A DNA stretch of 64,000 nucleotides from Sporosarcina sp. FSL K6-2383. Lineage in GTDB: Bacteria; Bacillota; Bacilli; Bacillales_A; Planococcaceae. The position numbers and the translations under genes are program-made. The DNA lies in contig NZ_CP152017.1 of assembly GCF_038618305.1 (NCBI RefSeq), positions 2,829,501 through 2,893,500 of the forward strand, read 5' to 3'. This document shows, in pieces, positions 4,894-39,655 of the stretch (its first letter is position 1; the number at the start of each line of letters is the position of its first letter). Below the pieces are notes generated by a model, which was not told the DNA's origin, did no database searches, and saw only the letters and a program-made list of their open reading frames with translations.

Positions 4894-5090
4894 GTTTAAA
4901 TCAATTACGCCTCGGAGTGATTGCGTCCGGATTTTTTTCGAGCTTACTCGAAAAGTTCCCCTAAAAATCCGTGACATCCGCCGGAGGCTTTATCTAGATT
5001 CAGCCGAAGTTTGGACTTCAACTGAATGAAAAGCTATTCTTATTCACTACACGACTTATGGAAGTGGTCGTTATCGGCTGAATTTAGATA
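4894..5090. repeat. Copy B of the dispersed structured repeat, between hisF and hisIE
   Basis: On the plus strand it begins TTTAAATCAATTACGCC. A stem CAATTAC (4902-4908)/GTGATTG (4917-4923) comes first. A closing arm GTCCGGATTTTT then pairs with AAAAATCCG (about 4963-4971) around an inner CGAG...CTCG hairpin. The block GTGACATCCGCCGGAGGC follows. The right arm TATCTAAATTCAGCCGA (in minus sense, 5074-5090) is part of the 3' end of hisF and mirrors 4991-5007. In mRNA sense the element occupies the 5' leader of hisIE. Confidence 0.8.
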
Positions 5091-5817
5091 AGTATTGTTT
5101 TAATTCGCCAATGTGAATATCTTCAAAATGGAAAACGGATGCTGCAAGTGCTGCGTCAGCTTTCCCTTCCGTCAATACGGTATGGAAGTGCTCAGGCTTA
5201 CCTGCACCACCGCTGGCAATGACAGGAATCGTGACGGCCTCTGCAATCGTGCGTGTCAATTCGAGGTTATAACCGTCCTTAACGCCGTCTTCGCCAATAC
5301 TGTTGACGACTAATTCTCCAGCGCCAAGTTGTTCAGCTCTTATCGCCCACTCAATGGCATCCATCCCCGTATCTTCCATACCCCCCTTGGCAAATACCGA
5401 CCATTTACCAGGCCCTACTTCGTTGACATCCATTGATAGGATAATTCGTTCAGAACCGAATTTTTTCGCCGCCTCTTCAATTAAAGATGGATTCGTTAGC
5501 GCTGCACTATTGATGGATACTTTATCGCCACCGGCATCAAAAACCTTTTGAATATCTTCAATCGTCCGAATACCACCACCGACGATAAATGGAATCGGCA
5601 CTTCATTCGCAATTTCAGCAATCAAATCGAGAAACATGGCGCGGTTATTCGTTGACGCGGCAATATCGTAAAATACCAGTTCATCTGCACCGTCCGCTAC
5701 ATATTTTCGAGCCAGTGTGAGTGGATCTGCCACTTCTTTCACCTCAAGAAATTTCTTGCCTTTTACAACCTTACCGTTATCAAAATCTAAGCATGGAATA
5801 ATTCGATTACTTGCCAT
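5071..5817 (-). CDS. hisF: Imidazole glycerol phosphate synthase cyclase subunit
   Basis: This 248-residue (beta/alpha)8 barrel normally forms IGP and AICAR from PRFAR with ammonia delivered by HisH. The catalytic acids D11 (CLDF) and D130 (LSMDV) are present. So are the ammonia-gate residues described for the Thermotoga enzyme (R5, E46, K99, E168) and D98, which contacts HisH. The loop after K19 reads KGKKFLEVKEVADP instead of the usual VNF/TNF-type sequence. hisH is missing from this operon, so the ammonia source is an open question. hisF overlaps the end of hisA by 11 nt. Its last six codons coincide with an arm of repeat copy B. Confidence 0.95.
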   Translation of the reverse strand: MASNRIIPCLDFDNGKVVKGKKFLEVKEVADPLTLARKYVADGADELVFYDIAASTNNRAMFLDLIAEIANEVPIPFIVGGGIRTIEDIQKVFDAGGDKVSINSAALTNPSLIEEAAKKFGSERIILSMDVNEVGPGKWSVFAKGGMEDTGMDAIEWAIRAEQLGAGELVVNSIGEDGVKDGYNLELTRTIAEAVTIPVIASGGAGKPEHFHTVLTEGKADAALAASVFHFEDIHIGELKQYLSKFSR

Positions 5818-6529
5818 CGTTGTCGTCCTCCAATAGTTTGATTAAGGATAATTTGCCTTCGTATAACGCTTTGCCAATAATTGCTCCGTACATATTTAAT
5901 TCGCGTAATTTTGCAATATCTTGCTCCGTAGAAACTCCACCTGATGCGATAATATCAATGCTCGACGCATTATTCATCATTTCTAATTCAACTAGATTAG
6001 GCCCTTGCAACATGCCATCTTTCAAAATATCTGTATAGACAACTGTTTGAACGCCAATTTCCACTAGCTGTTGCAGCAGGTCGACTGCTTTGACATCACT
6101 CAACTCTGTCCAGCCATCTGTCGCCACAAATCCACCCCTTGCATCGATGGACACTGCAATTTTGTCGCCATATTTTTCAACAGCTTCTTTTAGAAATTGC
6201 TGATCTTGGATAGCTGCTGTTCCGATAATCACTCGACTGACACCTGAAGCAATATGTGCGTCAACAATTTCCATATTCCGAATGCCTCCACCGACTTGCA
6301 CAGGGACAGATACACTCGCCGCAATCGCTCGAATGGCTTCTTTGTTCGATGAATTACCCGTTTTTGCCCCGTCCAAATCCACAACATGGATATAAGCAGC
6401 ACCTTGCTGTTCCCACTCTTTCGCCATCGCAGTTGGTGAATCGTTGTAAATAATTTCTTGATCGTAATCTCCTTGAATCAATCGAACACATTTCCCATCT
6501 CGAATATCGATGGCTGGAAATAAAATCAT
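5807..6529 (-). CDS. hisA: ProFAR isomerase (phosphoribosylformimino-AICAR-P isomerase)
   Basis: This barrel enzyme opens the ribose ring of ProFAR to give PRFAR, the HisF substrate. The start at 6529 gives 240 residues beginning MILFPAIDIRDGKCVRL, with catalytic D8. The second catalytic Asp is probably in YTDILKDGMLQGPN. An AAGGGGG ribosome site lies 7-8 nt upstream. The frame stays open for 32 more codons to 6625, but those codons are the 21-bp tandem repeat (repeating Tyr-Trp-Arg) and have no counterpart in HisA, so I reject that start. Confidence 0.95.
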   Translation of the reverse strand: MILFPAIDIRDGKCVRLIQGDYDQEIIYNDSPTAMAKEWEQQGAAYIHVVDLDGAKTGNSSNKEAIRAIAASVSVPVQVGGGIRNMEIVDAHIASGVSRVIIGTAAIQDQQFLKEAVEKYGDKIAVSIDARGGFVATDGWTELSDVKAVDLLQQLVEIGVQTVVYTDILKDGMLQGPNLVELEMMNNASSIDIIASGGVSTEQDIAKLRELNMYGAIIGKALYEGKLSLIKLLEDDNDGK

Positions 6530-6569
6530 GATGATGCCCCCTTTTTCTATCGGTAGTAAAGTCCTAATT

Positions 6570-6674
6570 CGCCAATAAGTTGACTGTAAGCGCCAATAAC
6601 TTGGTCCTGAACGCCAATAAGTCATCTGTAAGCGCCAATAAACAGCCGGTGAACGCCAATATCTTCGCTCCGGA
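6570..6674. repeat. Five tandem 21-bp units between hisB and hisA
   Basis: Units start at 6570, 6591, 6612, 6633 and 6654, each with CGCCAATA followed by a variable 12-13 nt. On the coding strand the core reads TATTGGCG, spaced exactly two helical turns. The array occupies nearly the whole hisB-hisA gap, where hisH is found in many relatives. Because 21 is a multiple of three and no stop occurs, it remains open in the hisA frame. Confidence 0.9.
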
Positions 6675-6678
6675 TGCT

Positions 6679-7263
6679 TTACAGCACGCCTTTTGTAGAT
6701 GGCACACCTTTTACATCTGGGTTAATCGTACTTGCAACCCGCAATGCTCTGCCGAAGCCTTTGAAAATCGATTCGATAATATGGTGTGTGTTTTTGCCAT
6801 ATTGTAAATTGATGTGTAAGTTGATTTTCGCGTTATTCGTAAATGCTAGAAAAAATTCTTCCACAAGTTCGGTATCGAAATCGCCGACTTTATCCTTCAT
6901 ACCTTCAACATTGAAAACAAGATACGAACGTCCGCTAATATCAAGTGAAACCGTGGAAAGCGCCTCGTCCATCGGCGTTGACACTGTCGCATAGCGCTCG
7001 ATGCCTTCTTTCGTGCCAATGGTATCATAAAATGCTTGTCCTAATACGATGCCAATATCTTCAACTGAATGATGCTGGTCCACTTCTGTATCACCATCAC
7101 AATCAACCTTTAAATCAAATCGTCCATGCTTCGTGAATAATGTCAGCATATGATCGAAAAAACCTACACCTGTTTGAATATCTGTTTCCCCGCTGCCATC
7201 AATTGCGAAGTCTAGCTTAATTTTCGTTTCTGCCGTTTGCCTTGAAATCGATTTACTACGCAT
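6679..7263 (-). CDS. hisB: Imidazoleglycerol-phosphate dehydratase
   Basis: This monofunctional 194-residue dehydratase converts IGP to imidazole acetol-phosphate at a di-manganese site. The duplicated metal-binding motifs are visible: GFFDHMLTLF, DQHHSVEDIG, and the second set LVEEFF and NTHHIIESIFKGF. The N-terminus MRSKSISRQTAETKI is typical. It overlaps the hisD stop by 8 nt. Its 3' end is directly followed by the 21-bp tandem repeat rather than by hisH. Confidence 0.96.
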   Translation of the reverse strand: MRSKSISRQTAETKIKLDFAIDGSGETDIQTGVGFFDHMLTLFTKHGRFDLKVDCDGDTEVDQHHSVEDIGIVLGQAFYDTIGTKEGIERYATVSTPMDEALSTVSLDISGRSYLVFNVEGMKDKVGDFDTELVEEFFLAFTNNAKINLHINLQYGKNTHHIIESIFKGFGRALRVASTINPDVKGVPSTKGVL

Positions 7264-38835: not shown

Positions 38836-38864
38836 TCACTCACCTCTCCTCCGAAGACATGACT

Positions 38865-38908
38865 CCGTTTGGCAACTGACATGTATCTTGTCTTAAGTTG
38901 CCAAACGG
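38865..38908 (+). terminator. Hairpin with plus-strand terminator features, 30 bp ahead of the SDR-like gene
   Basis: CCGTTTGGCAACT (38865-38877) and AGTTGCCAAACGG (38896-38908) are perfect 13-bp arms around an 18-nt loop, followed on the plus strand by CGTTTTAT. No plus-strand gene ends here, so it may instead fold in the minus-strand leader of the SDR-like gene. Confidence 0.55.
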
Positions 38909-38983
38909 CGTTTTATAGTGATATGTTGACTTGATTGTTTTCCATTTCTTCATTCATAAAACCCCTCATTTTCTCCCCACACT

Positions 38984-39433
38984 TTATTCCAATTGCATCA
39001 CATGCGTCGTCTCTGAAGCAGAATCATCTAATTCAAACCCATTCGACCGATAAAAAGCATCCGCCTTCGAGGATTCTGTTCGGACCGTCATTTCATTAAA
39101 GCTACCGCGAGAATGGTCAATAATTTGTTTGAGTAAAAGAGATCCAACACCTTGCCGCCTTGCATCGTCTAACACGTAAAACCTTTGCAAACGCGCAACT
39201 TGTGTATCGTCGGAAAAAGGTGATTGATTGACACCACCAATCGCAACAACATCGCCAGCTTTATTTTGAACAGCGAATAAGGCCTCTCCCGGTTTGTTGA
39301 ACCGATTGGTGCCATCTTGAAAATCATTAACTAAGCGCGACAAAAAGCGATAGCCTTCCGTTTCACTTTCCTTCACTAAATGAGAAATTGTAATCGCTTG
39401 TAAATCCTCAACCCGTTCCACTGTAAATGTCAT
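38984..39433 (-). CDS. GNAT family N-acetyltransferase
   Basis: This 149-residue single-domain acetyltransferase has LFAVQNKAGDVVAIGGVNQSPF, LQRFYVLDDARRQGVGSLLLKQII (acetyl-CoA loop R-Q-G-V-G) and ADAFYRSNGFE. Substrate unknown; the order of strands matches small-molecule GNATs. It is monocistronic. Copy F of the structured repeat begins about 20 nt upstream of the ATG, the same placement seen for hisIE, the ABC permease and sleL. Confidence 0.88.
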   Translation of the reverse strand: MTFTVERVEDLQAITISHLVKESETEGYRFLSRLVNDFQDGTNRFNKPGEALFAVQNKAGDVVAIGGVNQSPFSDDTQVARLQRFYVLDDARRQGVGSLLLKQIIDHSRGSFNEMTVRTESSKADAFYRSNGFELDDSASETTHVMQLE

Positions 39434-39447
39434 TGCTTTTTCCTCCC

Positions 39448-39655
39448 TTTAATCAATTATGCTCCGGCATAATTGCGTCCGGATTTTTTCGAGCTTGTGG
39501 CCTACAGAAAGTAGATCATGCAGTGGGAAGGATTGAACTGCATCCTTCCTTGTTGCGACAGGACGTCGTGCACTTAGACTGCCTTCTTAATTCCCCCATA
39601 AAAATCCGTGACATCCGCCGGAGGCTTTATCTGAGTTCAGATAAAGTAATTTTTC
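39448..39655. repeat. Copy F of the dispersed structured repeat (longest)
   Basis: TTTAATCAATTATGCTCCGG starts the element. The stem CAATTATGC (39454-39462)/GCATAATTG (39467-39475) carries paired substitutions relative to copies B and C. GTCCGGATTTTTTCGAGC and AAAAATCCGTGACATCCGCC form the outer stem, with a different long middle hairpin region (39499-39590). GGAGGCTTTATCTGAG ends in a small CTGA/TCAG hairpin. The rest of the 39434-39757 gap holds only the YitT terminator. Confidence 0.85.

Follow-up and report, generated by a model that had tools for sequence, protein, structure and literature searches.

A modular, probably orphan mobile palindrome of Sporosarcina that resembles the bcr1 repeats

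Results

A dispersed repeat of three palindromes

A stretch of 64,000 nucleotides (G000:C1:2829501-2893500, hereafter the window) from the single-contig, 3.67-Mb genome of Sporosarcina sp. FSL K6-2383 (G000) contains several copies of a dispersed repeat. This repeat is real, abundant, covarying, mobile and modular, and it belongs with the bcr- and MITE-like kind of element (MITE, miniature inverted-repeat transposable element). It is probably an orphan, bcr1-like mobile palindrome: a DNA repeat, mobile yet non-autonomous, that measures ~60-400 bp and is composed of three palindromes. An earlier note on the window had described five copies (B, C, E, G and F) and two fragments (A and D) and had read them as a mobile or amplified RNA-level element used as a leader. 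All seven were found at the places given (Table 1), with the shared blocks and terminal stems as described, the stems CAATTACG, CAATTATGC and CAATCACG differing among the window copies.

When up to 2 mismatches are allowed, the core of the element, GGATGTCACRGATTTT, is found at 156 sites in G000; a reversed-pattern control gives 2 sites, so there are far more than chance would yield. Copy B was matched at at least 39 further places over 86-117 bases at 78-92% identity (40 of 180 candidates were scored), and a repeat finder recovered B/C/F and B/F at 83-88% identity. Among the matches listed, the same core was present in Sporosarcina, Lysinibacillus, Psychrobacillus, Solibacillus and other Bacillales. 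Over 200 genomes of the family, where the site counts include chance matches, copy number was patchy: 23 genomes had at least 40 sites and five (G000, G193, G232, G091 and G132) had 140-196, against 0-13 for the controls. Copy B had no match in the phage and plasmid collections at 1e-5, and a literature search, most subscription papers being beyond its reach, found no publication on this element. Many copies were also seen in a record named Arthrobacter beigongshangensis REN13 (loci L077, L086, L091, L094, L108, L109 and L114); this label is probably wrong, because of these many copies and because locus L077 is nearly identical to locus L011 of G000.

Copies are mobile insertions with a preferred site

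Comparison with relatives supported the view that the copies are mobile insertions. The gap between hisF and hisI, which holds copy B, measures 208 nt in G000, while in 29 of 29 relatives it measures 13-35 nt and the element is absent; the hisI of the syntenic relative G014 is 90% identical to that of G000. When 464 kb of G000 were compared with 480 kb of G014, 25 length differences between the syntenic stretches carried the element. Judged by pattern, 28 G000 copies comprised 11 with an empty site in G014, 8 shared and 9 unmapped, so that 11 of the 19 mappable copies were missing from G014. Alignment of the pattern-shared copies showed no element in G014 at L234:16199 and a remnant only at L230:7098. 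The earlier proposal of a mobile or amplified element therefore stands, on the empty sites, the patchy high copy number and the site preference described next.

The left junction could be read to the base at four sites (L241:18725, L227:9520, window copy B and L243:7472), the empty-site forms being CTTTA/AAATTTG, GATTTA/CGTAG, ACTTA/TCTGAAC and GCTTTTTA/AATGTCC (the slash marks the junction). At these sites the element, with a single polarity, follows immediately on the 3' side of host (T)TTA, and no target duplication was visible; in copy B, the outer TTA, perhaps TTATCT, is host sequence. The host TTA pairs with a TAA of the element, and it is through this pairing that the outer stem of the 5' hairpin, H1, becomes complete. 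In copies with the guide TAAA, the first host base varies (TTTA 70, ATTA 12, GTTA 3, CTTA 2) and TTA is nearly always kept; these pairing counts cover 162 of 226 copies, with arms chosen for at least 10 of 12 pairs. At least five of the six junction bases were T in 48 of the 162 copies, and several copies sit, by eye, on the T-runs of terminator-like hairpins. On its right side the element ends in TTGAT or TTGA; beyond this, the sequences of G000 and G014 often differ.

Hairpin tips are exchangeable modules

On the leader strand, by which we mean the strand read toward the nearby start codon, a full copy runs H1, linker GCCTCCGGCGGAT, H2, H3 and then AT. H1 is a variable 5' palindrome (for example TTTATCTGAATTCAGC...GCTGAATTCAGATAAA), H2 has the outer arms GTCA-CRGATTTT / AAAATCYG-GAC and is capped by a small hairpin, and H3 is CAATTACGCC-GA-GGCGTAATTG, ending AT. 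On the reverse strand, CGTC follows H3, and the class of CGTC-tagged repetitive extragenic palindromes (REPs) described in the accessible part of PMC3733652 was considered beside it. In 214 of 234 copies the element closes inside 200 nt, and these have no room for a gene; an autonomous, gene-bearing version was rejected on this ground, the other 20 copies having no recognisable right half within 330 nt.

The hairpin tips were shown to be exchangeable modules, among them Bacillaceae-1 (RF01690), which is catalogued in Rfam. The tip of H2 is either a short GAGCNNGCTC hairpin or Bacillaceae-1, at times with an extra hairpin; of 248 copies, the tip is short in 157 and long in 68. The distances between the halves of H2 fall into discrete size classes near 52, 111 and 170, and the spans of H1 cluster near 30, 45, 105 and 140. 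Tips also differ at the same locus: at the site of window copy F, G014 carries an element with the short apex GAGCAAGCTC and the window copy has a Bacillaceae-1-like tip, and at L230:14891 the tip block was exchanged between G000 and G014 with the remainder nearly unchanged. Copies E and G lack H2. Since G014 carries a full element at the place of copy G, the latter looks like the product of a deletion between two CCGG repeats. A further variation concerns the loop of the H2 tip, where AA and TT are flipped (GAGCAAGCTC/GAGCTTGCTC) both within the set of copies and between orthologous ones (L014, L028, L030 and L239), as inversion of a perfect hairpin would give.

In copy C, the RF01690 gathering score was passed by the module alone and not by the whole element. 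In G000, Bacillaceae-1 gave at least 67 matches over the cut-off (150 of 498 candidates were scored). Of the 30 best, 24 adjoin the element core when judged by pattern; 2 others do so by eye, and the remaining 4 are solitary. In the 464 kb compared above, 11 of 13 Bacillaceae-1 hairpin matches lay within 350 nt of an element anchor, vs 3 for the control. The module occupies either the H2 tip or the stretch that separates H1 from H2, and what is catalogued as a small RNA (sRNA) is here a swappable part of a mobile element. In the accessible parts of the literature, eight Bacillaceae-1 structures are newly annotated in B. subtilis (PMC8208703), ten are given for Brevibacillus reuszeri (PMC5764928), and the discoverers of the family are quoted as unsure of its strand (PMC4333381). 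In genome G074 (loci L328-L343), near-identical Bacillaceae-1 modules lie inside another high-copy palindromic repeat, TTGATTTCCGTT...CCACTCCAATCAAC, and a second backbone.

Covariation shows no preference for an RNA fold on the leader strand

The claim that paired bases change together was borne out on a set of 52 copies, taken from 92 of the short form in several genomes: the named structure is paired in 94.7% of cells vs 88.5% in shuffles, double changes occur at 13 of 30 pairs, and 94 cells are double-changed vs 31 in shuffles. RNAalifold found H2 and a similar H3. A DNA palindrome is equally expected to covary in this way. The two cases can be told apart by their mismatches, for a structural RNA tolerates G.U and not A.C, and a DNA palindrome favours neither on a given strand.

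On the leader strand, 219 copies had 54 G.U and 102 A.C (bootstrap interval of the G.U share, 0.26-0.43), and in 112 of these, judged by a crude rule to face a start, the numbers were 29 and 57. A separate count per helix gave G.U:A.C of 17:48 in H1, 20:22 in H2 and 17:39 in H3; the H1 rows had been picked for complementarity, which restricts the number of mismatches and not their kind. In contrast, the tRNA acceptor stems of the same sequences gave 11:1 (21 of 23 tRNAs), whether the stem register was chosen by Watson-Crick pairs alone or with G.U counted. The Fisher p of 0.0001 for 54:102 vs 11:1 is optimistic, as the copies are related and the control is small. Because G.U is not preferred on the leader strand, the covariation is not evidence for an RNA fold on that strand, and the earlier notion of an RNA-level leader is not upheld. 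The base pairing seems to be kept at the level of DNA and not for the sake of a working RNA leader.

Position relative to genes

As had been noted, copies B, C, E, F and G have a start codon close by, toward which the AATCAAT end points. The gene on the 3' side was co-directional for 21 of 25 copies in G000 and 17 of 24 in G014, vs 52% of intergenic TTTA sites; pooled, this makes 38 of 49 (p 0.0003, with shared insertions counted twice), on crude calls of open reading frames. Random orientation relative to genes had been named as a possible refutation; in these copies the orientation is biased. Among the co-directional copies, the end of the element falls between -10 and 45 nt of the start in 43% (G000) and 59% (G014), vs 22% in the control. 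The enrichment at start codons is real but partial: placement near starts is a bias and not a rule, 38 of 56 G000 copies facing a start in a separate count and 18 facing a gene end at their 3' side. The proposed 5'-leader placement likewise held as nearness to starts, and did not hold for copy B, which is internal to the his operon, with hisF before it and hisI after it, and not at the 5' end of the operon. The bias is most simply explained by the survival of tolerated insertions. In some operons, a copy would become part of the transcribed leader or intercistronic RNA, where selection for an RNA fold is unsupported.

Separately, the end of copy B (window 5071-5091) was seen to supply the last codons and the stop of hisF in G000. 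As these replace those of the gene, the C-terminus of HisF is encoded by the element.

Table 1 Copies of the element and other features in the window.
Feature	Position in window	Strand	Description
Copy B	4900..5088	-	Full element inserted within the 3' end of hisF, with hisI ~34 nt downstream; G014 is 186 bases shorter here
Copy B, H3	~4902-4923
Copy B, H2	~4925-4975
Copy B, H1 right arm	~4990-5005
Copy B, H1 left arm	~5076-5091
Copy C	17298..17446	-	Element with Bacillaceae-1 module; upstream of ABC-2 transporter gene
Bacillaceae-1 (RF01690) match in copy C	17348..17413	-	58.4 bits vs gathering score 35
Copy E	22674..22734	-	Short form, H1 joined to degenerate H3; upstream of LysM/GH18 gene
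Copy G	24543..24623	+	Short form without H2; upstream of HAD-family gene
Copy F	39452..39641	-	Full element; Bacillaceae-1-like apex below the Rfam cut-off; upstream of GNAT gene
Fragment A	3099..3168	-	H1 palindrome and first half of H2; after gene at 3176-4282
Fragment D	21254..21361	+	H1 side, interior rearranged; inserted after a T-run; absent from G014
SAM (S-adenosylmethionine) riboswitch	30601-30708	-	By Rfam, 96.8 bits
6S RNA	41191-41382	+	By Rfam, 77.6 bits
Tandem repeat	6570-6674		About five 21-base units starting CGCCAATAA
Inverted repeat	23491-23548		Perfect, 27 bases, 4-base loop; between two open frames, terminator-like

Search for a mobilising enzyme

No Y1 transposase, RAYT or reverse transcriptase (RT) was found to track copy number, in 200 genomes for RAYT and in 11 high-copy and 12 low-copy genomes for Y1 and RT. 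Matches to Y1 (PF01797) occurred in 6 of the 11 high-copy and 7 of the 12 low-copy genomes, and matches to RVT_1 in 7 and 7, respectively; an association of Y1 or RT with copy number was looked for and not seen. The only Y1 match of G000, L217 (G000:C1:2327351-2327709), is a broken tnpA whose flanks lack element motifs. RAYT was present in 98 of the 200 genomes and, among the richest in the element, in G193 (broken), G124 and G095, so that intact Y1/RAYT enzymes exist in some high-copy genomes (G124 and G095) and not in others. A Bacillaceae-1-like hairpin seen by eye beside the RAYT of G009 was not repeated at 30 other RAYT loci, and RAYT was set aside as a candidate mobiliser; no over-threshold Rfam match was obtained in L218 or in 19 of the 30 RAYT loci. 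The mobilising enzyme, if any, may be lost.

Discussion

Relation to known repeats

By description, not by sequence, the nearest repeats in behaviour are bcr1-bcr3 (group A). According to the accessible parts of PMC6542083 and PMC3446304, the bcr set consists of MITE-like non-coding repeats of 100-400 bp, bcr1 reaching up to 130 copies, with a mobility tied to TTTAT, and the first bcr is given as confined to the B. cereus group. In contrast, the present element occurs in Sporosarcina, Lysinibacillus, Psychrobacillus and Solibacillus, among others. At its 5' junction TTA is kept, with TTTA in most stem-paired copies; from copy to copy, the fifth base is either T or A.

Palindrome-associated transposable elements (PATEs, derived from IS200/IS605) and the REP/REPIN-RAYT systems also resemble our element in having palindromes, no duplication seen and a fixed side of a short target, as their known geometry goes, and differ from it in that several high-copy element genomes have no matching Y1 transposase or RAYT. 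Classical MITEs, moved by a DDE transposase, differ in their ends, for TCTTCATTCAGC and TAATTGAT of the element share no inverted repeat by eye and its readable sites have no target-site duplication. The BOX elements of Streptococcus pneumoniae are modular repeats with variable middle modules and a stem-loop fold; the likeness, drawn from this general description only, lies in these same three traits.

Alternative explanations

A cis-acting structured RNA leader, amplified for regulating the genes downstream, would account for the covarying hairpins, for the co-directional genes and near starts reported above, and for the 5' parts of the element that are better conserved than the upstream flank. 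We consider it improbable: G.U is not preferred even in start-facing copies when set against the tRNA stems, about a third of the copies counted (18/56) have a gene end at their 3' side, at a given locus G000 and G014 can differ in the tip and, at window copy G, in the whole of H2, and the genes behind the window copies are functionally unrelated. An RNA role on the other strand was also weighed, in which the AGGA loops of reverse-strand Bacillaceae-1 might bind CsrA and the dispersed copies act as a sponge, a CsrA-target reading already proposed in the accessible part of PMC4333381. The P2 loops of Bacillaceae-1 read GTCCT or ATCCT on the leader strand in 59 of 65 copies (AGGAY on the other strand) and the P3 loops ATCCT in 32 of 65, and CsrA is encoded in G000 and in 181 of 200 genomes, with Bacillaceae-1 matched in 144 of the 181 vs 8 of the 19 without CsrA, an association confounded by genus. 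Such a sponge nevertheless appears very unlikely, given that one of these eight CsrA-less genomes has at least 24 Bacillaceae-1 matches and another 19, and that the majority short tip lacks such a loop.

Mobilisation as the passenger of an IS200/IS605-type Y1 transposase or, in the REP manner, of RAYT would fit the absence of target duplication, the insertion 3' of a short T-rich target, the palindromic ends without terminal inverted repeats by eye and the bias to the lagging-strand template. It is still rather unlikely, as PF01797 has no match in the high-copy genomes G232, G091, G174, G180 and G134 (5 of 11), RAYT is absent from G000, G232, G091, G132, G174, G180 and G134, and none of the 30 RAYT loci is flanked by the element on both sides. 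Polarity, TTTA and the absent duplication would be explained as well by retro-copying of an RNA from the strand opposite the leader, in which a host TTTA-3'OH primes on UAAA and an RT copies to the 5' end AUCAA. The A.C excess of the leader strand would then be G.U on the other, and Gardner and Eldai, in the accessible part of PMC4333381, had their motif match on the reverse strand of Bacillaceae-1. This reading is highly doubtful, however, with no RVT_1 match in the high-copy genomes G000, G193, G174 and G180 (4 of 11), and no strand signal in either the three Bacillaceae-1 helices (8 G.U and 9 A.C in 65 copies) or H2; an A.C excess in P2 and P3 of Bacillaceae-1 (4:12) seen in a small pattern sample was dropped when a stricter set gave 8:9. 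In a related and also unlikely version, the element is an orphan with no known kind of transposase, spread by target-primed copying of a folded strand of RNA or DNA whose 3' UAAA/TAAA anneals to host TTTA, with host replication enzymes at work and interchangeable tips, one of them filed as an sRNA family.

Weight of the evidence and a possible mechanism

An orphan mobile DNA palindrome thus remains the reading we favour, and several observations count against it. The 5' part of the element is better conserved than the flank in 4 of 6 shared copies (for example 66/68 vs 87/106), which could point to a function; of the other two, one is about equal to its flank and the second is less well conserved (56/67 vs 100/106). 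An RNA made from the opposite strand could be hinted at by the A.C excess of the leader strand. Among the 25 junctions between G000 and G014, many are degraded, with no TTA rule visible. The leader strand has leading-strand sense, and so serves as template of the lagging strand, in 68 of 100 listed copies (of the 156 sites; origin and terminus inferred from the GC skew of sampled stretches); this bias speaks for the favoured reading but is confounded by gene orientation. To these are added the PF01797 and RVT_1 matches missing from the high-copy genomes named above, and a Y1 that is broken or partial in G000, G014 and G193.

As a mobile DNA palindrome, the element might spread in the form of single-stranded DNA that has folded up, the lagging-strand template at the replication fork being a possible place for this. 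The host TTA would anneal to the TAA of the element and so fix the point of insertion. Its hairpins would covary either because the fold of the DNA has to be preserved or because one arm is repaired from its partner by template switching; such switching, or gene conversion, could also exchange the tips.

The finding poses a puzzle, as ~150 copies have spread in G000 without visible target duplication, and no intact Y1 transposase, RAYT or RT was found in that genome. The strand-wobble test used here separates the covariation of DNA palindromes, a possible source of false candidate RNAs, from that of RNA structures. At least in G000, Bacillaceae-1, a widely annotated RNA family, is explained as part of a mobile modular repeat.

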